A DNA stretch of 64,000 nucleotides from Iodidimonas sp. SYSU 1G8 (lineage in GTDB: Bacteria; Pseudomonadota; Alphaproteobacteria; SMXS01): assembly GCF_039655775.1 (NCBI RefSeq), contig NZ_JBBYXJ010000002.1:1488001-1552000 (forward strand), written 5' to 3'. The notes below the pieces were generated by a model that saw only the letters and a program-made list of their open reading frames with translations, did not search any database and was not told the DNA's origin. Position 1 is the stretch's first letter. Every line of letters begins with the position of its first letter. Of the stretch, positions 1 through 10,017 are shown piece after piece. The position numbers were made by a program, and so were the translations under genes.

Positions 1-120
1 CTCGCCCGGCGCGAAGCCGTGTTCGATGACCAGGACCGAACGACCCCGCCGCGCCGCCTCGATCGCGCACATCATGCCGGCGGCGCCGGCGCCGATCACC
101 ACTACGTCGAAAGAGTCCAA
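1..120 (-). CDS. HI0933-family flavoprotein, N-terminal fragment (runs off left edge)
   Basis: Only the first 40 codons lie in the window. The translation carries a dinucleotide-binding Rossmann start, VVVIGAGAAGMMCAIEAARR, followed by a second strand ending in VIEHG and then PGE. This is the FAD-binding beta-alpha-beta signature of HI0933/YhiN-type NAD(P)/FAD-dependent oxidoreductases. I place the start at a TTG at 120 because an in-frame TAA lies eight codons upstream and a GGAGA lies about 11 nt before it. No ATG is available between that stop and the motif. The function of this family is poorly defined. The family call rests on the GAGAAGMMCA form of the motif and is less certain than the FAD-binding call. 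Confidence 0.72.
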   Translation of the reverse strand, partial: MDSFDVVVIGAGAAGMMCAIEAARRGRSVLVIEHGFAPGE

Positions 121-184
121 GGCCGCCTGCGTCTCCGATTACCGCTGCGCGGTTCATAGCACGGCTTCACAAGCGGCGCGCGGC

Positions 185-472
185 TCAACCCATATAGGGC
201 CGCGCCGCGGCGATGGCCGGCCCGCAGGACGGGACAACTTCGGCCACCACGCTCTCGGCGCTGGTCATGCCGAACGCCACGCCCAGCGCGGTCGCGGCGC
301 TCCAGCCCCACCGTTCCGACACGCGTTCCGACAGGGCGGCGGGCGCCTCACCGAGGCACGTGGTGACCTGAGCGATCACCTCGCGCGGGGCAGAGGCCAA
401 GGTTTCGCTGAGTTCGGCCTGAAATGGCTCGAGGACGAAAATGCTCAGCATCGACATGAGGAATTCGTTCAC
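185..472 (-). CDS. Small hypothetical protein, translationally coupled to the TerC gene
   Basis: This is a 95-aa protein of unknown family. It starts at a GTG that overlaps the TGA of the TerC gene (GTGA overlap), so it is probably co-translated with it. It has a hydrophobic N-terminus (LMSMLSIFVLEPF), a mixed amphipathic middle, and a C-terminal stretch rich in Ala, Val and Gly. I see no clear signal peptide and no catalytic motif. The overlap and the usual local codon bias argue that it is a real gene. Its role may relate to the metal or stress function of its TerC partner, but that is inference from position only. Confidence 0.6.
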   Translation of the reverse strand: MNEFLMSMLSIFVLEPFQAELSETLASAPREVIAQVTTCLGEAPAALSERVSERWGWSAATALGVAFGMTSAESVVAEVVPSCGPAIAAARPYMG

Positions 473-1461
473 GGGACGGCCTTTTCATGAGGGGGCGGCG
501 CGTTACGCGTTTTCCAGAGACTGTACGCGACGCCCGAAGCGAGGATGGCGAGGGTGATGCCCAGCGACGCGGCCGCCGGGAATTTTTCCATGCCCAGCAG
601 GTCCGCGACGAAGACCTTGCCGCCGATGAAGATCAGCAGGATGGCCAACGCGGTCTTCAGGTAGTGGAACCGGTCGACGATGGCCGCCAGGGCGAAATAC
701 AGCGCGCGCAGTCCGAGGATGGCGAAGATGTTCGACGTGTACACGATGAAGGGATCGGTCGTGATCGCGAAGATCGCCGGGACGGAGTCGACCGCGAAGA
801 TGACGTCGGCGATCTCGATCAACACCAGCGCGAGGAAGAGGGGCGTCGCGAACCAGACCGCCTTGCCGCTGACAGGGTGGGGCTTGCGCACGAAGAAGTG
901 CTGGTCGTGCAGCTCGTCCGTCACATTGAAGCGGCGGCGGATGAACTTGAGCAGTGGGTTGTCGCCAATGGATCGGGGCTTGTCGTCGAACATCAGCATC
1001 TTGATGCCCGTCAGGATCAGGAATGCCGCGAACAGGTACAGCACCCACGAAAATTCCGAGACGATCGCTGCGCCGAAGCCGATCATGATGGCGCGCAGGA
1101 CGATGACGCCCAGAATGCCCCAGAAGAGCACGCGGTGCTGATAGAGGCGCGGAATGGCGAAATAGGTGAAGATCAGGGCGATGACAAAGACGTTATCCAT
1201 CGCCAGGGTCTTCTCGACCGCGAAACCGGTGAGATAATTCATCCCGGCTTCCGCGCCGAGATACCACCATACCCAGGCGCCAAACGTGATGCCAAGGCTG
1301 ATGTAGACGCCGGACATCAAGAGGCTTTCCCGCACGCCGATCTCCCGCTCCTTACGGTGCAGGATACCAAGATCAATCACGAGAAGGCTGATGACGATGC
1401 CGATGAACGACAACCACATCCACAGCGGCTTGCCGAGCCAGTCGGCAAACAGAAACTCCAT
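469..1461 (-). CDS. TerC/Alx-family integral membrane protein
   Basis: About 330 aa with seven to nine hydrophobic helices. It begins MEFLFADWLGKPLWMWLSF, the usual opening of the TerC/Alx family. Conserved acidic membrane motifs are present: AMDNVFVIALIF in the third helix region and IEIADVIFAVDSVPAIFAI later on. These Asp/Glu positions are thought to handle Mn2+ or related cations in the Alx and TerC groups. An in-frame extension reaches back to 1560, but it would run through the conserved leader element. I therefore prefer ATG 1461, or TTG 1467, which has GGGAG 8 nt upstream. The gene faces the DUF4112 gene across a shared control region and is followed by a coupled 95-aa gene. Likely role: manganese or alkali stress homeostasis (family knowledge, not shown here). 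Confidence 0.9.
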   Translation of the reverse strand: MEFLFADWLGKPLWMWLSFIGIVISLLVIDLGILHRKEREIGVRESLLMSGVYISLGITFGAWVWWYLGAEAGMNYLTGFAVEKTLAMDNVFVIALIFTYFAIPRLYQHRVLFWGILGVIVLRAIMIGFGAAIVSEFSWVLYLFAAFLILTGIKMLMFDDKPRSIGDNPLLKFIRRRFNVTDELHDQHFFVRKPHPVSGKAVWFATPLFLALVLIEIADVIFAVDSVPAIFAITTDPFIVYTSNIFAILGLRALYFALAAIVDRFHYLKTALAILLIFIGGKVFVADLLGMEKFPAAASLGITLAILASGVAYSLWKTRNAPPPHEKAVP

Positions 1462-1508
1462 GTCCAAAATGGGCACTCCCTCTGCTGTCGGCTTGCGATA
1501 TCGAAGAA

Positions 1509-1558
1509 GGTCCGACATCGCGGGAGCGCCGACAAATCCCGCCAGAGGGGCCCGGACC
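1509..1558 (-). promoter_or_regulatory. Structured leader RNA element of the TerC gene (copy 1)
   Basis: Read on the minus strand, the element opens with GGTCCGGGCCCCTCTGGCGG and closes with CCGCGATGTCGGACC. GGTCCG pairs with CGGACC as an outer stem. GCGGG pairs with CCCGC as an inner stem over a 13-nt loop. The two stems flank an asymmetric internal loop with GGCCCCTCTG on the 5' side and ATGT on the 3' side. The element ends 47 nt before ATG 1461. A second copy with the same layout serves the divergent gene. I recall a published computational 'terC' RNA motif in Alphaproteobacteria that this may match, but I cannot compare it with a covariance model. Confidence 0.68.
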
Positions 1559-1665
1559 ACGGGTTGAGCGCGAATTGGGGATGCGAGCGGCCGTCGTCAA
1601 GGGCGTGCGGTAGATTTTTTTCGCACCTTGAATTTGTCTCCGGAATCGCCACTTGAACGGCACTG

Positions 1666-1705
1666 GGTCCGGGCCCCTCTGGCGGCGGTTGCCGCGATGT
1701 CGGAC
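1666..1705 (+). promoter_or_regulatory. Structured leader RNA element of the DUF4112 gene (copy 2)
   Basis: This is the second copy of the element upstream of terC, on the opposite strand. It shares the same 20 nt at its 5' side and CCGCGATGTCGGAC at its 3' side. The outer stem is GTCCG with CGGAC, plus a possible G-U pair. The inner stem is GCGGC with GCCGC over a GGTT loop, so its last pair is C-G where the terC copy has G-C. The element ends 48 nt before ATG 1754. Equal spacing and a compensatory change support an RNA structure rather than a chance repeat. Confidence 0.68.
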
Positions 1706-1753
1706 TCTTCCACCTGACGGGCGCTTGTGGCGTCTGAATTCTGGGAGTTTCCC

Positions 1754-2194
1754 ATGGCTTATGCCGGATCGACGACTTTCGAAAACTATCAGCCCGCTGA
1801 CGAGACTCACGCCGCGGCACGCGTTCGCCTCGACGCCATTGCGCGATTCTTCGACAGCGCCTTCACCCTACCCGGAACCAACATTCGTTTTGGCGCGGAT
1901 GCCCTGCTGAACCTGTTCCCGGGTGCCGGCACGTTGCTGTCCAGCGGCGTGTCGGCCTATCTGGTCTGGGAGGCCCGGCGCCTCGGGGCGCCCAAGATTC
2001 TGATCGGGCGGATGCTGGCGAATGTCGGCGTCGACACGGTCATCAGCGCCGTTCCCTTGGTGGGCTGGGTCGGCGATGTGTTCTTCCGGGCCAATCTGCG
2101 CAATATGAAACTGCTGCGTGACCATCTGGACAAGGTGGCGCGCAACCGGGTCGAGGAAGAGTCGATCACGACCACGTGGAGGGTCGTGCGTTGA
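1754..2194 (+). CDS. DUF4112 domain protein
   Basis: 146 aa. After a short N-terminal tail comes the DUF4112 core: RLDAIARFFDSAFTLPGTNIRFGADALLNLFPGAG, a hydrophobic helix around LLSSGVSAYLVWEARRLGAP, and a second one around VDTVISAVPLVGWVGDVFFRAN. This is a small inner-membrane protein family of unknown function. I choose ATG 1754 because GGGAG sits 6 nt upstream and the leader element ends 48 nt before it. A GTG at 1727 would add nine residues. The gene shares a divergent, structured control region with terC and overlaps the next small membrane gene by four bases (TTGA), so the two are probably one operon. Confidence 0.88.
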   Translation: MAYAGSTTFENYQPADETHAAARVRLDAIARFFDSAFTLPGTNIRFGADALLNLFPGAGTLLSSGVSAYLVWEARRLGAPKILIGRMLANVGVDTVISAVPLVGWVGDVFFRANLRNMKLLRDHLDKVARNRVEEESITTTWRVVR

Positions 2195-2544
2195 AAGCGT
2201 TTCTCTGGATCGTGACGTCGATCTTCATTGCGTTCTGGACGATCTCGGCGTGGGTCGCCTATGCCGTCATCGATGTCTCGGGCAACTGGGCGTCGGGGAA
2301 CGCCGACGCCGTCACGTCGCACCCCGAAACGGTCGAGACCCTTTCCTGGTTGGCCCGCGTACTGGCAGGCACCGGTGAATTCATCGTCATCGCTGTCTGG
2401 GCCGTGGGTACGCTGATAATGGCGGCGGTGCCGTGGCTGCTGGGCAAGCTGATCGATCGCGCTCGTCCGAAGCCGGTGTTGCAGTGGCATCCGGACGACC
2501 CGCGCGCGGCCCCGCGTAACCCCGGTTCGCAGCGGATACCCTGA
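2191..2544 (+). CDS. Small two-helix membrane protein
   Basis: 117 aa, family not recognised. The start is taken as TTG 2191, which overlaps the TGA of the DUF4112 gene and has GGAGG 8 nt upstream. A GTG at 2176 lacks this support. There are two clear transmembrane segments: an N-terminal one (AFLWIVTSIFIAFWTISAWVAY) and a second around residues 60-85 (FIVIAVWAVGTLIMAAVPWLLG). The polar stretch between them lies outside or in the periplasm. The tail is basic and proline-rich. Co-expression with DUF4112 suggests a shared membrane role. Nothing more can be claimed. Confidence 0.75.
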   Translation: MKAFLWIVTSIFIAFWTISAWVAYAVIDVSGNWASGNADAVTSHPETVETLSWLARVLAGTGEFIVIAVWAVGTLIMAAVPWLLGKLIDRARPKPVLQWHPDDPRAAPRNPGSQRIP

Positions 2545-2549
2545 TCCGT

Positions 2550-3077
2550 TCAGTGACCCATGTGATCGTGCGCGTCATGGTGTTCGGCGGGCATGGTCGG
2601 CGCGGTCGCGCCGGCGCCCTCGACACTGAACACCACGTCAACAGTGCCGGCGTCTCGAAATGTCAGCGTACCGGGAAAGGATTCACCCTCTTTGAGGGGC
2701 CGTTTCAGATTCATCAGCATCAGGTGGTACGAACCCGGCTTCAGAGCGACCGTAGCGCCCGGCGCCAGTTCAATGCCATTCATGAGATGACGCATGCCCA
2801 TCACGCCATCCCTCATGGTGGATTCGTGAATCTCGACCTTCTCGGCGATGTCGGCTGTCGCCGAAATCAGCCGGTCGGCCTTGTCGCCGCGATTGACGAC
2901 GTCCAAGTAGCCACCGGCTACCTTGGCGCCGCCGGGCGTGGCCCGCGACCAGGGATGGATGATTTCCAGGTCGCCCGCCGCGGTTGCATGCGCGTGCGGC
3001 TCGGCGGCGATGGCCGGCGCGGCGGCGAGAAGAACCAACGCGGCGAGAGCCGAACGAATCCTGCTGTAGCGAAACAT
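2550..3077 (-). CDS. PCu(A)C-type periplasmic copper chaperone
   Basis: 175 aa with a Sec signal peptide (SALAALVLLAAAPAIA, cut near residue 24). The mature part is a PCu(A)C cupredoxin-like domain: the IIHPWSRATPGGAKVAGGYL opening, then KVEIHESTMRDGVMGMRHL, which carries the His and Met copper ligands of the family (HxM at H-E-S-T-M and further Met). The His-rich tail (HHDAHDHMGH) may add copper binding. PCu(A)C proteins deliver Cu(I) to the CuA site of cytochrome c oxidase in the periplasm. The start has an AGGAGG-like site just upstream. The gene is divergent from the secreted superoxide dismutase, and both act outside the cytoplasm. Confidence 0.9.
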   Translation of the reverse strand: MFRYSRIRSALAALVLLAAAPAIAAEPHAHATAAGDLEIIHPWSRATPGGAKVAGGYLDVVNRGDKADRLISATADIAEKVEIHESTMRDGVMGMRHLMNGIELAPGATVALKPGSYHLMLMNLKRPLKEGESFPGTLTFRDAGTVDVVFSVEGAGATAPTMPAEHHDAHDHMGH

Positions 3078-3229
3078 GACACCTCCTGGGCTGGTTCGGG
3101 CGGAGTTTCCATGCCCCCATGCGCAGGGTCAAGCCGCAAGGGGGTCGTCAATCCCATGATGGCTTCCTATGATACCGCCGCGCGGTGGCGCCGGAGCATC
3201 GCGGGCACTTACATCCAAGGAGAACATCC

Positions 3230-3946
3230 ATGAATCCCAAAATGTTGGCTGTTTCGCTGTCGCTGGCCTTCGCTGCAGCCGTGCCATTTGGCGTCATGGC
3301 GGCGGAAACCGCCGCGACGACCGCGCCGTCGGCGGCGTTCGAGCAAGCGCCTTTGCCCTATGCCTTCGACGCGCTCGAGCCGGTCATTGACCGGCAGACC
3401 ATGGAAATCCACCATGGCCGCCATCATGCCGCGTATGTGAAGGCCCTGAACGCAGCGATCACCGACACGCCCGCCCTGCAGGGCAAGACCCTTGATGAGA
3501 TCCTGGCGTCCGTTTCATCCGCCTCTCCGGCGGTGCGGAACAACGCGGGTGGCCACTATAACCATACGCTTTTCTGGACGCTGATGGCCCCGGCCGATCA
3601 GCGCGGCGCGCCGTCCGATGCCTTGAAAGCCCAGATCGACAAGGATTTCGGCTCCTGGGACAACTTTAGCAAGGCCTTCGAGGAAGCGGGGACCAAACGC
3701 TTCGGCTCGGGCTGGGCGTGGCTGATCTGGTCGGACGGGAAGTTGAGGGTCATCTCGACACCGAACCAGGACAATCCCCTGATGGACATCGCCGAGGTCA
3801 AGGGCACGCCGATCCTTGCGAACGATGTCTGGGAGCACGCCTACTATCTGAAATATCAGAACAAGCGCGCCGACTATCTGAAGGCGTGGTGGCAGGTCGT
3901 GAACTGGGCCAAGGTGAACGAGCTGTTCGCCGCCGCGACGGAGTAA
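3230..3946 (+). CDS. Secreted Mn-type superoxide dismutase
   Basis: 238 aa. A signal peptide (MLAVSLSLAFAAAVPFGVMA) precedes a complete Fe/Mn superoxide dismutase domain. Metal-site motifs are present: HHGRHHAAYV, GGHYNHTLFW and DVWEHAYYLKYQ. The NQDNPLM segment and the GGH form resemble Mn enzymes more than Fe enzymes, so I read it as Mn-type or cambialistic. It converts superoxide to H2O2 and O2, here in the periplasm. ATG 3230 is chosen for the AAGGAGAA 6-8 nt upstream and because the signal peptide begins right there. A longer in-frame start at 3185 has no support. Transcription probably ends at the palindrome just downstream. Confidence 0.93.
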   Translation: MNPKMLAVSLSLAFAAAVPFGVMAAETAATTAPSAAFEQAPLPYAFDALEPVIDRQTMEIHHGRHHAAYVKALNAAITDTPALQGKTLDEILASVSSASPAVRNNAGGHYNHTLFWTLMAPADQRGAPSDALKAQIDKDFGSWDNFSKAFEEAGTKRFGSGWAWLIWSDGKLRVISTPNQDNPLMDIAEVKGTPILANDVWEHAYYLKYQNKRADYLKAWWQVVNWAKVNELFAAATE

Positions 3947-3953
3947 GATCCAG

Positions 3954-3981
3954 AGGCATTCCGGCCCGGGCCGGAATGCCT
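3954..3981. terminator. Bidirectional hairpin between sod and cysE
   Basis: A perfect 28-nt palindrome (AGGCATTCCGGCCC and its complement) lies between two convergent genes, with stop codons 10 nt to the left and 22 nt to the right. No long T-run follows on either strand, so termination strength is uncertain. Position and symmetry still favour a shared terminator. Confidence 0.7.
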
Positions 3982-4003
3982 CGTTCTCTCGGGGCTGGCC
4001 GGC

Positions 4004-5008
4004 TCAGCCCAGCGCGCCGTCCTCGTCCTTGCGGGAGCAGATTTCGTAGAGCATGGCGCAATCGTTGCGCATCTGTGCCTGGGTGACATTGCTTCCCGGC
4101 GGCACGCTTTGCGTCAGCCAGACATTGCCGCCGATGGTCGATCCGGCGCCAATGGTGATGCGACCCAGAATGGTGGCGCCGGAATAGATAACGACGTCGT
4201 CCTCGACGATGGGATGACGGGCGATGCCCTTGATCAGGGTGCCGTTCTCGTCGGCGGGGAAGCTCTTCGCGCCCAGGGTCACGGCCTGATACAGCCGCAC
4301 CCGGTCGCCGATGATCGCGGTCTGGCCGACCACGACCCCGGTGCCGTGATCGATGAAGAAAGCTTCGCCGATCTCTGCCGCCGGATGGATGTCGATACCC
4401 GTGCTGGAATGAGCGATCTCTGAAATCAGCCGGGCCGGCAGCGTGGCGCCCAGCTTGTATAAGGCGTGCGCCACGCGGTAGTGGATGACAGCCGTCATTC
4501 CGGGGAAGCAGATCAGGATTTCCGAAATGCTCGTGGCCGAGGGGTCGCCCTTGTAAGCCGCATGCAGGTCGCTGACCAGCATGTCCCGGATCGCCGGCAG
4601 TTGCTCGCCAAAGGCCCGCACGATCCGCGTCGCCCGTGCGCGAATGTCGCTATCGCTGTCATTATCGGAATCCGCCGAGAACATCAGGCCGCGCCGGACC
4701 TGTTCGGTCAGCGCGTTGAGCGCCGTGTTCAGGGTGCTGCCGACGAAATAGTCGATGCTGTCGTGGTTGAGATCGGGACGACCATAATGCGTGGGAAACA
4801 GCGCCGCCGAGATCAAATCCATGATGCGGGAAATGGTATCCCGCTCCGGGAGTTCGCTGATCCGGCCGCGAAACCGGATATTGTGCTTGATCTCGCGCGA
4901 TTGGCGCAGGCCATCGACGATACCATCAAGGTTCCAGTCGGTCTGGTGGGCCTGGTCGTGACTGGCCGGCGCCTGGGCGTCAAAAGTCGGCTTTATCTGG
5001 ACTGACAT
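4004..5008 (-). CDS. cysE: Serine O-acetyltransferase (EpsC/CysE type)
   Basis: 334 aa. The N-terminal half is the helical SATase region (residues about 25-190). The C-terminal part is a left-handed beta-helix with hexapeptide repeats and the acetyltransferase hallmark DIHPAAEIGEAFFIDHGTGVVVGQTAIIGD, then YQAVTLGAKSF and HPIVEDDVVIYSGATILGRITIGAGSTIGGNVWL. It transfers acetyl from acetyl-CoA to L-serine, the first step of cysteine synthesis. The long N-terminal extension is typical of the EpsC-like form. No cysteine synthase gene is adjacent. A 17-nt palindrome about 80 nt upstream may be its control site. Confidence 0.93.
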   Translation of the reverse strand: MSVQIKPTFDAQAPASHDQAHQTDWNLDGIVDGLRQSREIKHNIRFRGRISELPERDTISRIMDLISAALFPTHYGRPDLNHDSIDYFVGSTLNTALNALTEQVRRGLMFSADSDNDSDSDIRARATRIVRAFGEQLPAIRDMLVSDLHAAYKGDPSATSISEILICFPGMTAVIHYRVAHALYKLGATLPARLISEIAHSSTGIDIHPAAEIGEAFFIDHGTGVVVGQTAIIGDRVRLYQAVTLGAKSFPADENGTLIKGIARHPIVEDDVVIYSGATILGRITIGAGSTIGGNVWLTQSVPPGSNVTQAQMRNDCAMLYEICSRKDEDGALG

Positions 5009-5541
5009 TTCGGCTTCCGAGAATGAAGAAAGCCCGGCTTTCCGAGGTCCGCCAGGCGCATTGTTGGCGTCAGTGTACCGGAGATAGCCCGATACGGGCT
5101 AGAGACAATTGCCGATCAGCGGCTTGGCGCGCCGCCGCATGCTTCTGCTGCTGGGCCAGCTGCAACCGGAGTTGCGCCGCGCCGACGCGCCCATACTTCC
5201 TCCACGTCTTTCGCAGGCGGTTGGCGACGACGTATTTCCGCCGCATCGCGGACACAAAACGGCGTTGATCGGCCTGCATCATTTTTTTACCGGATGGCCG
5301 GAACAATTTGTCGCGCGCATCGTTTGAAGGCCTTCGGAAGGTTGTGCGAGTGGCCTGTTTTGCCGCTAACGTTAATTTAATAATATAAAATGTTACGGTA
5401 ACGAATTGATAAAATTCACAAATCTTTACTGCGTGGGTTCATTTTTTTCTGGCGCTGGACGCTCGCATGGCTATTTCTTGTGAAAATGCCGTTTAGACGG
5501 TTTTACGAATCCATTGGGTCAAATTAGCAAAGGGAGCTCCC
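5009..5541. promoter_or_regulatory. Long intergenic control region between cysE and autotransporter 1
   Basis: 533 nt with no convincing gene. The left third holds TAGCCCG-ATA-CGGGCTA at 5085-5101, a candidate operator for cysE. A 70-78 codon, Arg/Gln-rich open frame on the minus strand (5070-5282 or 5306) has no ribosome site and is doubtful. From 5350 to 5460 base composition swings to AT-rich. It holds TAACGTTA (5367-5374), an AT run with -10-like TAATAT, and GTTACGGTAAC (5392-5402). I take this as the promoter and operator zone of the autotransporter gene, which implies an untranslated leader of 100 nt or more. Confidence 0.5.
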
Positions 5542-8500
5542 ATGAAGCGCTTGGACAACAAGCTCAAGCTATCGGTGTCGCTGCTTGCATTGATGAGCGG
5601 CGGCGCGTTGCTTGCTTCAACCGCGCAGGCTGTCACCATCAGTGATGCGCAGAATTCCGTCGTCATCACCACCGATGCTTCCGACCTCACCGTCGAGGAA
5701 ACTGGCGACGTGTCGCCGGGTGGCATCCTGGTTCAGGGTGGCGTGGACGGTGATGTCCTCAACGACGGGTCCATCGAATTCGTCGACAGCCCCATCGCGT
5801 CGGACAGCAACAGTGTCATCGCCGATGCCGTCGCCCTCGAGATCCTGGGTAACGTGGGTGGAGACGTCACCAACAACGGCGCGATGATCGCCACGTCCGA
5901 TGCGGGCGTGAGTGTCATTTCCGATTTCTCGGACACCATCGCCATCGATGAAGATAGCTCGTCCAGCGCCATGTCCTACGCGACCGGCCTCTGGTTGAAC
6001 ACGGTCGACGGCGACGTCACCAACAATGGCGACATCACCGCGACGGCGACGGCCGACGCCTCTTCCGACATCAGCGCCGATTCCGATCTGGATTCGGCCC
6101 TGGGCGGCGGTTCGTACTCCGAAGCCGAAGCCTACGGTGTCGATGTGACCCTGGGCGAGGATAGCGGCTTCACCAATGCCACCGACGCGACCATCGTCGC
6201 CGACGCCAGCGCCTCGAGCGACGTGGTCGCCGATGTGACCGGCGACAATGCCTCGCTGTTCGACAGCGAAGGCGGCGACGCTGTTCAGTCTTATGCTTAC
6301 GCGTACGGTGTTGATCTTCTGGGCGGCGGCGACATCGTCAACGATGGCAGCATCGAAGCCATCGCCGAGGCCAGCGCCGTTCTCGACGGCACGGTCACCG
6401 CGACAGCCGGCTCGGCGACGCTGGTGGATGTCACCGACTCCTACGCCGAGGCGACGGGCGTGTGGTCGGAAGGCGACATCGACGTCTTCGACAACACCGG
6501 CACGATCTCGGCCACGTCCACCGCGACCAGCACGGCCACGGCCGATGCGATGGCGACGGATGGCACGGCGACGATCATCGGCGAAAACTCGGCCCATGCC
6601 TATGCGGGCGGCGTCGATCTCGACACGACCGGCGCGTTCCTCAACGATGGCGACATCTCGGCCGACAGCGCCGCGGTTGTCGATGTCGATGGCATCGCGA
6701 CCGGCGAACTCGGTTCGGCGGTTTCGCTCGGCAACTTCGCCGAGGGCGAATCGTGGGGCGTGTACATCGAGGATCTCGATGGAGATTTCGACAACAATGG
6801 TTCGATCAGCTCGGTTTCCAGCGCTGACGTGACCGCTATCCTGGATGCGGATTCCGCCGACACGGGTACTGGTGTGGTCTCCACCGGCGGCGGCGCCATT
6901 GCCAGTGCGTGGGGCGTGCAGGTCCAGAACCTGGACGGTGAATTCAACAACGGTGCCGATGGCGAAATCTCCGCCGACGCCACTGCTTCCACGTCATACG
7001 ACATTGCCGCGAACGGCGTGTCGTCCGGTACCTTGAACGAAACCACCACCCAGGCGAATGCCGTGGGCGTTTATGTCGCTGGTCTCAGCGACGGCGAAGA
7101 GGGCGACACCGACGTCAACATGATCACCAACGCGGGGACCATTTCCGCGACGGCGAGCGCGACGTCCGACCTGATCACCTCCTCGACGGCCGAAACGACC
7201 GCCGGTGCTGGCGGCATCTCCAGCTATAATGGGACCGGCGCTCTCGCGGCGGGTCTGTTGAGCGAAGGCAACACGACCGGCTTCGACAATTCCGGCGACA
7301 TCTCGGCGTCCGCGACCGCGGCCTCGACCGTGACGCAGGACGTTGCCGGCGACGATGGTGCCATGGGCGGCAGCTCCAACATCCTGTATGCCGCTGCCAT
7401 TGGCACGGCCTTCACCTCGCCCGTCGATGGCGACATCGTCAATTCCGGCACGATCGACGCCACCGCGTCGGGCACGCTGGACATCGGCATGACGGCCACT
7501 GACCCCAGCGAAACCGGTTCGCAGAACCTCGGCGGCGTCGTCGCTGTCGGCCTCTACGCCGACGTCGAAGCGCCGAGCGATGACGAGGATACCGCGAACA
7601 CCTTCACCAACAGCGGCACCATCAGCGCCACGGGTGATCTCACCATCGACGTCACCCAGCCGACCTCGTCGGATACGGTTGGCACCTTCCAGCAGACCTA
7701 CGGCGTTCTCGGCGTCGCGGGCGCGGTCGTCGCCGGCGATGCCAGCGTGATCGACAACAGCGGCGACATCACTGCCACTGGCTCGCTGAACACCACCGGC
7801 ATTACCGGTGAAGACAGCCTGACGGCCGCCGCGGCCATCGGCCTGTGGTTGCCGGAAGCCAATGACGGTCTGGTCGTCAACAACAGCGGCGACATCACCG
7901 CCGAACTCACCGGCAACGCGGACGAGTCCGTGGCTGTTGGCCTGATGCTGGGTCCGGTTCCGGATGGCCTGCTCGACGGACTGATCGGTGGCGAAGGCGG
8001 TCTCGGCGATCTGCCGATCGGTGGAATTCTGCCGGGCGAAGGTGAAGGCGACGATATCCAGGTCCTCGCGGCCGGCGTCATCACCGTCAACAATACCGGC
8101 AACATCTCCGGAAACAACGAGACGGAAGGCGGCTACGGCTACGGCATCTTCGCCGAAACCGCGCCGGTTCCGGTCGTGATCAACCAGATGGGCGGCTCGA
8201 TCTCCGGCTCCACGGCGGCCATCGCCATGGATCAGGGCGCGGCTGACGTGCTCAACTGGTCGGGTGGCTCGATCAGCGGTCTGGTCGACGCCGACTCCGC
8301 CGATGTGGTCAACGTCATCCAGAATGGCGAGAACGCGACCACCGTCACGGCGGGCACGGACTTCGTTCTCGAAGGCGCCGGCCAGCTGAATATCGGTGCC
8401 GAAGACGCGCCGGTGACCTTCGTGATGAATGGTACCGTCAACAATGTCGGCGAAGCCAATCTGAACACCGATGGCACGCTGGTCGTCGGTCCGACGGGTG

Positions 8501-10017
8501 AAATCAACGTCGGCACCTACAACCAGGATCCGGACAGCACCCTGATCGTCCAGTTCGGCCCCACCGGCGGCGGTCTGATCACCACCGTGGGCGATGCCAA
8601 CATCGACGGCAACTTCCAGGCCCAGGCCGTGGCCGGCCTGTACGGCGACAGCGGCAGCTACGTCGTCATCGACGCCGGCGGTGCCGTGGTCGGTGAGTTC
8701 GACAGCATCGACAATGTCGGCGATACGCTTCTGCTGGACTTCACCACCGAGGTGAATCCGTCGGACGTGACCGTCACGTGGAACCGCAACGCCTTCGACG
8801 AAGTCGATGGTCTCAGCGACAATTCCGCTTCGGTCGCCGGTGCGCTGGAAGACGGCTACGACCCGACCCGTCCTCCGTCGGGCAACACTCCCGAGCTGAA
8901 CGACCAGATCGGCGGCCTGTTCACCCTGACCGACCCGGTCCTCTATGACCGTGTTCTGAACTCCTGGTCAGGTGCCGAACATGCCCAGGTCATGCGGGCG
9001 GCGACCAATCTGTCCGAGCCGTACCTGATGGCCCTGACCGAGCACCTGAACGACAACCGCAATACCGGCTTCAAGCAGCAGCGCGTCGTGATGCTGCGTC
9101 CGGACGGTTCGTCCAACTCGATCGCGCCGGCGTCGTCGGTCGGTCAATCGGGCGCCGAAGAAAGTGGCATCGCGTTCTGGGGCCGTGGTTTCGGTCGCTG
9201 GACGGATGTGCGCGGCGATCTGAACGCCGGTGGGTATGAAGAAGATACCTATGGCGCGGTCCTGGGTATGGACTTTCGGGTTGCCCCGACCGTCCTGCTG
9301 GGTGTCCTTGGTTCGTACATCGACAACGACATCGACTTCGACGATGGCGACTTCGGTTCGATCCGTCGCTGGAGCGTTGGCGGTTACGCGTCGGCCCAGT
9401 TCGATGCCTTCTATCTCGATGGCTCGTTCACCTACGCCAAGGACAAGTACCGTGTGGACCGCACCATCATCACGGGTGGCATCGCCAACCCGCTGTATGA
9501 CGGCACGGTCGGCGCCTCGTCCCGCTACAAGGGTGATGGCTGGATCGCTCATGCCGAAACCGGTTTCAACTGGGATCTCGGCGAGAGCGCCAAGCTGCAG
9601 CCTTTCGCTGGCATCAACTACACCAGCCTCGACAGCGACGGCGTCACCGAAACGGGTGCGGGCGATCTTGGCCTGAACGTTCTGGATGGCACCGGCAAGT
9701 CGCTGCAGTCCCGCCTCGGCGCTCGTCTGAGCGGCGAATGGGGTTCGGGCGACGTGGTATGGGTCCCCGAGCTGCGCGGCGAATGGCGCCACGAGTTCAA
9801 GGACAATCCGGCGTGGATCGAAGCCTCGCTCATCGGTCTTCCGGGCCAGCCGTTCCAGACGGTCGGTTCCAAGATCAGCCGTGACCTCGCGGTCATCGGT
9901 GCGGGTATCTCGGCCCAGTTCGCTGGTGGTTGGGGTCTCTACGTCGACTATCAGGGCGCGTTTGCTTCTGGCTACAAGAGCCACATCGCGCAAGCCGGGG
10001 TCCGCGTTAAGTTCTGA
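5542..10017 (+). CDS. Giant autotransporter 1 (type Va), repeat-rich passenger
   Basis: 1,491 aa. Order: signal peptide ending STAQA (residue about 31); a passenger of about 1,080 aa; a conserved linker from about residue 1120 (LNDQIGGLFTLTDP...VLNSWSGAEHAQVMRAA); and an autotransporter beta-barrel of about 284 aa starting near residue 1208 (GIAFWGRGFGRW) and ending in GVRVKF, with the terminal Phe needed for barrel assembly. The passenger is built from degenerate units of the type GDxxNxGxIxAxAxA. It is very rich in Ala, Ser, Thr, Asp and Gly and free of Cys, so it is expected to fold as a beta-helix on the cell surface. The start has AAAGGGAG 6-7 nt upstream. No protease or lipase triad is visible. 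Adhesion or biofilm is the likely role. The next gene is a paralogue. Confidence 0.92.
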   Translation: MKRLDNKLKLSVSLLALMSGGALLASTAQAVTISDAQNSVVITTDASDLTVEETGDVSPGGILVQGGVDGDVLNDGSIEFVDSPIASDSNSVIADAVALEILGNVGGDVTNNGAMIATSDAGVSVISDFSDTIAIDEDSSSSAMSYATGLWLNTVDGDVTNNGDITATATADASSDISADSDLDSALGGGSYSEAEAYGVDVTLGEDSGFTNATDATIVADASASSDVVADVTGDNASLFDSEGGDAVQSYAYAYGVDLLGGGDIVNDGSIEAIAEASAVLDGTVTATAGSATLVDVTDSYAEATGVWSEGDIDVFDNTGTISATSTATSTATADAMATDGTATIIGENSAHAYAGGVDLDTTGAFLNDGDISADSAAVVDVDGIATGELGSAVSLGNFAEGESWGVYIEDLDGDFDNNGSISSVSSADVTAILDADSADTGTGVVSTGGGAIASAWGVQVQNLDGEFNNGADGEISADATASTSYDIAANGVSSGTLNETTTQANAVGVYVAGLSDGEEGDTDVNMITNAGTISATASATSDLITSSTAETTAGAGGISSYNGTGALAAGLLSEGNTTGFDNSGDISASATAASTVTQDVAGDDGAMGGSSNILYAAAIGTAFTSPVDGDIVNSGTIDATASGTLDIGMTATDPSETGSQNLGGVVAVGLYADVEAPSDDEDTANTFTNSGTISATGDLTIDVTQPTSSDTVGTFQQTYGVLGVAGAVVAGDASVIDNSGDITATGSLNTTGITGEDSLTAAAAIGLWLPEANDGLVVNNSGDITAELTGNADESVAVGLMLGPVPDGLLDGLIGGEGGLGDLPIGGILPGEGEGDDIQVLAAGVITVNNTGNISGNNETEGGYGYGIFAETAPVPVVINQMGGSISGSTAAIAMDQGAADVLNWSGGSISGLVDADSADVVNVIQNGENATTVTAGTDFVLEGAGQLNIGAEDAPVTFVMNGTVNNVGEANLNTDGTLVVGPTGEINVGTYNQDPDSTLIVQFGPTGGGLITTVGDANIDGNFQAQAVAGLYGDSGSYVVIDAGGAVVGEFDSIDNVGDTLLLDFTTEVNPSDVTVTWNRNAFDEVDGLSDNSASVAGALEDGYDPTRPPSGNTPELNDQIGGLFTLTDPVLYDRVLNSWSGAEHAQVMRAATNLSEPYLMALTEHLNDNRNTGFKQQRVVMLRPDGSSNSIAPASSVGQSGAEESGIAFWGRGFGRWTDVRGDLNAGGYEEDTYGAVLGMDFRVAPTVLLGVLGSYIDNDIDFDDGDFGSIRRWSVGGYASAQFDAFYLDGSFTYAKDKYRVDRTIITGGIANPLYDGTVGASSRYKGDGWIAHAETGFNWDLGESAKLQPFAGINYTSLDSDGVTETGAGDLGLNVLDGTGKSLQSRLGARLSGEWGSGDVVWVPELRGEWRHEFKDNPAWIEASLIGLPGQPFQTVGSKISRDLAVIGAGISAQFAGGWGLYVDYQGAFASGYKSHIAQAGVRVKF

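Follow-up and report, generated by a model that had tools for sequence, protein, structure and literature searches.

In the window, the 64,000-nucleotide stretch of DNA analysed here, a terC/alx gene and a DUF4112 gene diverge from an intergenic region with two inverted copies of one structured element. This raises the question of what the element is, which genes and promoters accompany it elsewhere, and how it might control the genes behind it.

Two terC RNA copies between divergent genes

An earlier note on this DNA had described two inverted copies, each facing its own gene, and had pointed to a described terC RNA motif to which they might belong. We could confirm both points. The Rfam covariance model RF03067 ('terC RNA') matched both copies over its full length (model positions 1-59), with scores above the gathering cut-off of 39.9 bits, which identifies both by sequence as members of this family. 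At an E-value of 0.001 they are the only RF03067 matches in the 3.9-Mb genome. Copy 1 lies upstream of, and co-oriented with, terC, and copy 2 upstream of the DUF4112 gene; the inverted arms span 29 nt at 1530-1558/1666-1694 (86% complementary) and 14 nt at 1510-1523/1692-1705 (100% complementary). The claimed spacing of the copies from their genes is also correct, with 47 nt between the end of P1 at 1509 and the terC ATG at 1461, and 48 nt between the end of the shared 14 nt at 1705 and the DUF4112 ATG at 1754.

Folding both cores gave two stems, P1 and P2, around the same internal loop, as the earlier note had drawn them. Neither core was more stable than its dinucleotide shuffles (z +0.79 and -0.19), so that conservation and covariation, and not stability, carry the structural claim. 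A relation to the yybP-ykoY riboswitch, which the note had named for comparison, did not emerge: RF00080 was absent from the 12 matches obtained at E-values up to 10 in positions 1-6000 of the window.

The features of the locus are collected in Table 1. In four relatives, TTG-GAC-CT(T/A) stands in place of the window's TTG-GAC-ATG; judged from this comparison, translation of terC probably starts at the TTG at 1467. The gene overlapping the terC stop encodes an unnamed protein (fam9) with homologues elsewhere that have a terC RNA of their own, as seen from 44% identity to the gene behind element L013 (genome G003) and 33% identity to that behind element L150. The protein encoded at 2191..2544 had no Pfam or NCBIfam match, and its gene is perhaps part of the DUF4112 transcript. 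Just past the DUF4112 gene lie genes for a PCu(A)C copper chaperone (2550-3077) and an Fe/Mn superoxide dismutase with a signal-like N-terminus by eye (3230-3946). A 1491-residue open frame at 5542-10017 is rich in short repeats and, by eye, autotransporter adhesin-like.

Table 1. Predicted features of the terC/DUF4112 intergenic region and the adjoining genes (window coordinates).
Feature	Position	Strand	Basis
95-residue unnamed protein gene (fam9), overlaps terC stop	185..472	-	
terC/alx gene (start TTG 1467 or ATG 1461)	469..1467	-	PF03741 8.9e-51; TIGR03718 'R_switched_Alx' 402.8 bits
GGAC at probable TTG start; competes with P1 3' strand for P1 5' strand	1462..1465	-	predicted fold
Shine-Dalgarno region CAGAGGG-AGU-GCCC, pairs with invariant loop GGGC/CCCUCUG in alternative fold	1471..1484	-	leader MFE; swap test on 71 Alx leaders
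Linker arms GCCGAC (1492-1487) and UCGAUAUCGC (1504-1495)	1487..1504	-	same fold in 6/6 genus leaders
terC RNA copy 1, leader of terC/alx	1503..1563	-	RF03067 60.3 bits, E 5e-9
Copy 1 P1 arms	1558-1552 and 1515-1509	-	
Predicted promoter of copy 1: CCTTGACG - N15 - CCCAATTCG	1571..1602	-	17.3 bits, two-block model
Predicted RpoH-like promoter of copy 2: CCTTGAAT - N14 - GCCACTTGA	1626..1656	+	17.3 bits
terC RNA copy 2, leader of DUF4112 gene	1661..1712	+	RF03067 55.1 bits, E 7.7e-8
Copy 2 P1 arms	1665-1672 and 1700-1707	+	
Hairpin of Shine-Dalgarno UGGGA (1742-1746) with UUCCA (1708-1712), directly 3' of P1	1708..1746	+	MFE of 6/6 genus leaders
DUF4112 gene	1754..2194	+	PF13430 5.9e-30
117-residue gene, overlaps DUF4112 gene end	2191..2544	+	ORF overlap

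Conservation, distribution and gene partners

Covariation was counted on 203 non-redundant copies out of 277 and supports most outer P1 pairs and P2 pairs, in line with the covarying inner stem of the earlier note. P1 pairs -4, -5, and -6 are standard in 89, 84, and 70% of these copies (62, 63, and 44% expected from column make-up), and P2 pairs 3, 4, 5, and 6 in 96, 95, 90, and 82% (66, 57, 45, and 41% expected). P1 pair -3 (49%, with 44% expected) and the P1 pairs beyond -7 received no covariation support in this set, and there is scarcely any variation in the four inner P1 pairs. Even in the 158 rows that were not picked by pattern, the loop GGGCCCCUCUG shows almost no change; GAUG is nearly as constant among the 203 copies, partly through their selection. 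Elements L273-L275, L277, L279, L280, and L282-L284, which come from another class of the same phylum, have CUGAC...GCCAUG for CUGGC...GCGAUG, with A opposite C at the P2 closing pair; several of their Shine-Dalgarno regions read GGAGGGGC(C/U) and match the loop especially well.

Among 60 genomes drawn as relatives, 11 contain RF03067, counting the window's own; each of the six other genomes of the genus has between one and four copies. In further draws, which overlap with one another and with the first, it was present in 52 of 385 genomes of the class (Alphaproteobacteria) and in 31 of 80 from a single family of this class. Across the phylum it was present in 64 of 398 genomes, and the nine of these that fall outside the class all belong to one family. 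Caulobacter vibrioides alone among 14 named control genomes has a match. A contig titled as an Acidobacteria MAG (L106), possibly misbinned, has a terC RNA before a TerC-type gene. Two loci (L127, 5724-6095; L085, 5352-5749) each have two tandem terC RNAs about 300 nt apart on one strand, and in L127 a small DUF465 gene lies between them.

Covariance searches and a pattern scan of named genomes yielded 284 distinct elements, of which 274 were left once near-identical and double matches had been removed. Families were named from Pfam scans of BLAST cluster representatives and not of every gene. On this basis, 145 of the 274 elements precede a TerC-type gene, namely 94 of the Alx type, 35 of a shorter TerC type that we label YjbE, 14 DUF475 genes, and 2 TerC fragments or others. 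The remaining partners are diverse: DUF465 (23), TerB (18), DUF4112 (16), a TFIIB-type Zn-ribbon (16), the unnamed family of about 100 residues, fam9 (6), diacylglycerol kinase (6), Bax1-I (4), a Na/Ca exchanger (3), and further families with one to three members each, including a bicarbonate transporter, an Mrp antiporter subunit, two carbonic anhydrases, and a P-type cation ATPase. Seventeen elements precede a gene without family assignment and one has no credible gene. The distance to the gene (10-90% range) is 17-70 nt for Alx and 19-151 nt for the shorter TerC type.

The earlier note had singled out the link to DUF4112 and had proposed a DUF4112-TerC regulon. The link itself holds in several lineages: the 16 DUF4112 elements come from six genomes of the window's genus, its own included, and from ten loci elsewhere, among them Azospirillum, Roseomonas, Microvirga, Tianweitania, and a Xanthobacteraceae MAG. 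Divergent Alx/DUF4112 pairs also occur in two other families (G135, G136). The regulon is overstated; the element does precede both kinds of gene, but DUF4112 is a minority among many families, and in 115 genomes of the class only 2 of 14 DUF4112 genes, both in this genus, have the element (pattern with up to two mismatches). Adjacency of the two genes as a rule was rejected, the window being the only one of 14 DUF4112 loci with a tblastn match of its TerC within 3.3 kb. DUF4112 is thus a genuine but minor partner of the terC RNA.

Predicted promoters upstream of the element

Of 199 elements, 146 have a TTG between -48 and -40 relative to the core; in seven other position intervals the count is 16-33 of 199. 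Motif finding from an RpoH or a sigma-70 seed led to C-TTG-(A/C)-(A/C), about N16, and C-C-(C/T)-A-(T/C)-(C/A)-T. Using a two-block promoter model trained on the same sequences that it scores, we found more than 10 bits at a near-fixed distance upstream in 217 of 277 elements, a recount in which three double matches were kept. By class, these were 16/16 DUF4112, 17/17 TerB, and 104/146 TerC and DUF475 elements. Among 912 null windows, 2.4% exceeded 10 bits and 95% stayed below 8.6 bits. The near-fixed distance suggests that the terC RNA is probably the very 5' end of the mRNA.

The sigma factor has to be read from the motif. PMC4843759 gives the Sinorhizobium (S.) meliloti RpoH1 and RpoH2 consensus as CTTGAA-N15-16-CCTATAT and CTTGCC-N15-16-CCTATCT, and the element promoters resemble the RpoH regulon of Alphaproteobacteria in both consensus and spacing. 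A -35 of CTTGAA or CTTGCC and a -10 of CCTATNT at N15-16 are matched across the element set, where they are not cleanly separable from sigma-70; the R. etli SigA consensus quoted in PMC4167512, cTTGAc-N16-cnATAA, is close to the RpoH motif, and the -35 of copy 1, CTTGAC, fits sigma-70 too. After the TTG, AA follows in 74, AC in 31, and CC in 15 of 193 elements. In 30 rnpB promoters AC was the commonest pair (10) and the motif TTGAC-like, and clpB promoters agreed partially with the element motif. From the motif we infer that RpoH rather than sigma-70 would drive these promoters. The named classes of the 274 elements differ from the RpoH regulon in that they contain no groES or clpB. We also tried groES as an RpoH yardstick and discarded it, six of the nine best groES matches in the class being TTGAC.

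A possible point of contact with published RpoH data is Caulobacter CC_3681, annotated as terB. PMC3751524 lists it with a predicted RpoH motif and with a 4.33-fold rise, alongside RpoH genes, when iron is limiting. RpoH1 of S. meliloti serves heat, oxidative, and pH stress, according to PMC3616915. Literature searches joining RpoH with terC or 'TerC family' returned no paper; the main texts of PMC9866376 (on the P. aeruginosa RpoH regulon), PMC4167512, and PMC2976971 contain neither 'terC' nor 'tellur', and the Caulobacter transcript maps searched do not contain 'terC'.

Predicted alternative folds and the proposed switch

The whole terC leader of the window is predicted to fold differently from the core alone. 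In its minimum free energy (MFE) structure (-52.1 kcal/mol, z -3.44; z -2.51 for the leader up to the start codon), the Shine-Dalgarno region is paired with the invariant loop, GCCGAC of the linker with the P2 loop, and UCGAUAUCGC with the 3' strand of P2/P1. The same alternative fold was obtained for 6/6 leaders of the genus, five of terC and one of the unnamed family (z -2.4 to -5.7), with 89.4% of its cells paired as compared with 37.8-46.2% when the fold was slid. Compensatory change is scarce in these leaders, two pairs having changed on both sides, which 70 of 500 shuffles also reached. G004 has a rare C-to-A loop change with U opposite; four of the six leaders are unpaired at this site, which makes the change a single anecdote.

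All structural evidence for a switch comes from energy models, in which whole-leader folding with swap controls was the sole approach that gave a clear signal for loop and Shine-Dalgarno region. In the swap test on 71 Alx leaders, elements with their native linkers reached -9.40 kcal/mol and elements given the linkers of other leaders -7.83 kcal/mol, and 0 of 20,000 permutations were as low. The result holds without the window's own genus; in four control runs the linkers were shuffled, and z ranged from -1.1 to +0.3. Omitting the last 14 nt before the start reduced the signal from z -5.6 to -1.6. It persisted when each 80%-identity cluster was represented by a single leader (n=57, z -3.9 to -5.0) and weakened to p=0.02 when leaders were collapsed at 70% identity (22 of 32 clusters negative). 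YjbE, DUF465, DUF475, and DUF4112 leaders showed no swap signal, and Zn-ribbon leaders a weak one (n=12, z -2.1).

Shuffling the linker alone in 184 leaders gave a mean z of -1.38 (se 0.12), a value that includes structure within the linker, and tail-linker pairing by the anti-arm had a mean z of -0.67 in 82 Alx leaders and -0.16 in 98 others. When the loop was permuted, predicted Shine-Dalgarno accessibility rose slightly, from 0.31 to 0.35 in Alx leaders (56/82), and also in 15/17 YjbE and 17/22 DUF465 leaders. Duplex energies between loop and Shine-Dalgarno, computed before 22 TerC-cluster ORFs were reassigned from a shadow frame to Alx, did not distinguish genes with the element from those without (p=0.10); against 26 groES/clpB starts p was 0.019, but 0.48 after correction for G+C and anti-Shine-Dalgarno match. 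Downstream complements of the CAGAGG type were not striking (6/195) in a test that was too narrow, and AGAGG, GAGGGG, and AGGGGC occur downstream at two-fold or more over shuffles. As a possible terminator signal, TTTTT was present within 120 nt in 41 of 273 cases, with 28.6 expected.

According to these models, Alx-type terC leaders, including that of the window, have a second, incompatible fold with the loop paired to the Shine-Dalgarno region, and element and linker look co-adapted. In silico, these leaders thus have two mutually exclusive folds, one of which masks an expression signal. The terC fold lies a median of 7.2 kcal/mol above the MFE in Alx leaders, which, as modelled, would be a large cost for a ligand to cover at equilibrium.

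The DUF4112 leaders are built differently. Folding revealed no alternative fold of loop and Shine-Dalgarno; the Shine-Dalgarno was in the separate hairpin listed in Table 1. Within the genus, the outer stem of this hairpin is invariant, whereas in the inner stem one pair differs on both sides and three differ on one side. The whole DUF4112 leaders of the genus did not exceed their shuffles in stability (z -1.08 to +0.50).

We consider it probable, with moderate confidence, that both copies are terC RNAs at the 5' ends of RpoH-type mRNAs and that the terC/alx leader is a two-state translational switch. This reading draws, at the level of sequence, on family membership, covariation, the near-fixed promoter position, and the breadth of genes, and, at the level of modelling, on the fit between element and Shine-Dalgarno region in Alx leaders. 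Transcription would begin at a promoter of the RpoH (heat-shock sigma) type, with the element as the mRNA 5' end. In the terC fold (P1 and P2), linker and Shine-Dalgarno would be free and terC/alx translated. In the alternative fold, the P1 5' strand and the loop would pair with the Shine-Dalgarno and the start codon, and the P2/P1 3' strand with the linker anti-arm; with ribosome site and start codon paired, translation would be off. As for direction, we infer that the gene would be turned on by whatever stabilizes the terC fold; candidates are a protein, pH, or a ligand, for instance Mn2+ or some other cation. The same element would work with other output parts elsewhere, as in the DUF4112 leader, where a separate hairpin directly next to P1 would hold the Shine-Dalgarno. 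Since cation, bicarbonate, and carbonic-anhydrase genes are among the partners, a cation or pH is a reasonable first guess for the cue, and no more. Much more tentative is the wider proposal of a riboswitch class that gates translation for cation and pH homeostasis (Alx/TerC, Ca2+ exchangers, bicarbonate, carbonic-anhydrase, DUF4112, and other genes) on RpoH-driven mRNAs, so that these genes would need both protein-damage stress and a chemical cue at the same time in order to respond, with the same aptamer and different output hairpins.

The element could instead be a docking site for a trans-acting factor (an RNA-binding protein or a small RNA) or a 5'-end stability element, with the Alx alternative fold secondary and no small-molecule ligand. 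We regard this as unlikely, but it accounts for several observations: the RNA is probably at the very 5' end, its conservation ends about 14 nt past the conserved AUG, the range of gene distances varies by class, and the swap signal is found in Alx leaders only, and weakly in Zn-ribbon leaders. Against it, the leaders of Alx, the largest class, have an alternative fold directed at the Shine-Dalgarno beyond composition, as a switch would. A function at the DNA level, as an operator or promoter-proximal site in which the inverted repeats are protein half-sites, would suit the nearly invariant loop and the predicted promoter adjoining each copy. We think this very improbable, since P1 and P2 pairing is kept through many two-sided changes and the P2 region ranges from 13 to 61 nt, both unexpected of an operator, and the element lies downstream of the predicted start site. 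An upstream reading frame, with the conserved AUG in GAUGUCGGA as the start of a leader peptide or of a longer protein, can practically be dismissed: the AUG of the window's terC copy is in frame with terC, but only 84 of 250 elements are in frame, the third expected by chance. Half of the frames reach a stop within 32 codons, and that of the DUF4112 copy does so after six.

The two-state switch that we favour has a functional parallel in the yybP-ykoY Mn2+ riboswitch. The E. coli alx leader acts by exposing the ribosome site. It serves the same protein subfamily (TIGR03718 'R_switched_Alx'), and if our model is right, the terC RNA would also act in this way. The terC RNA differs from yybP-ykoY in sequence and size and has no RF00080 match, so that the likeness is one of function and not of membership. 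RF03067 is named for terC, and the motif was reportedly first described by Weinberg et al. in 2017; to this family the present analysis adds a wider gene set, an RpoH-like promoter, and a predicted Shine-Dalgarno-masking fold in Alx leaders. Gene breadth, promoter class, and alternative fold are new here, although part of this may already be in print. Our literature searches found nothing on a bacterial terC RNA, the 'terc rna' matches listed being by title about telomerase RNA or other eukaryotic matters and further matches about OLE RNA, and as far as these searches show, the terC RNA has so far been a curated but unexplained family.

With a likely promoter class, a larger gene set, and an on/off model with named base pairs, this orphan motif becomes decidable. 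The gene list also gives DUF4112, fam9, and other uncharacterised proteins a shared context, which is probably transcription by a stress sigma factor together with TerC/Alx metal and pH homeostasis.
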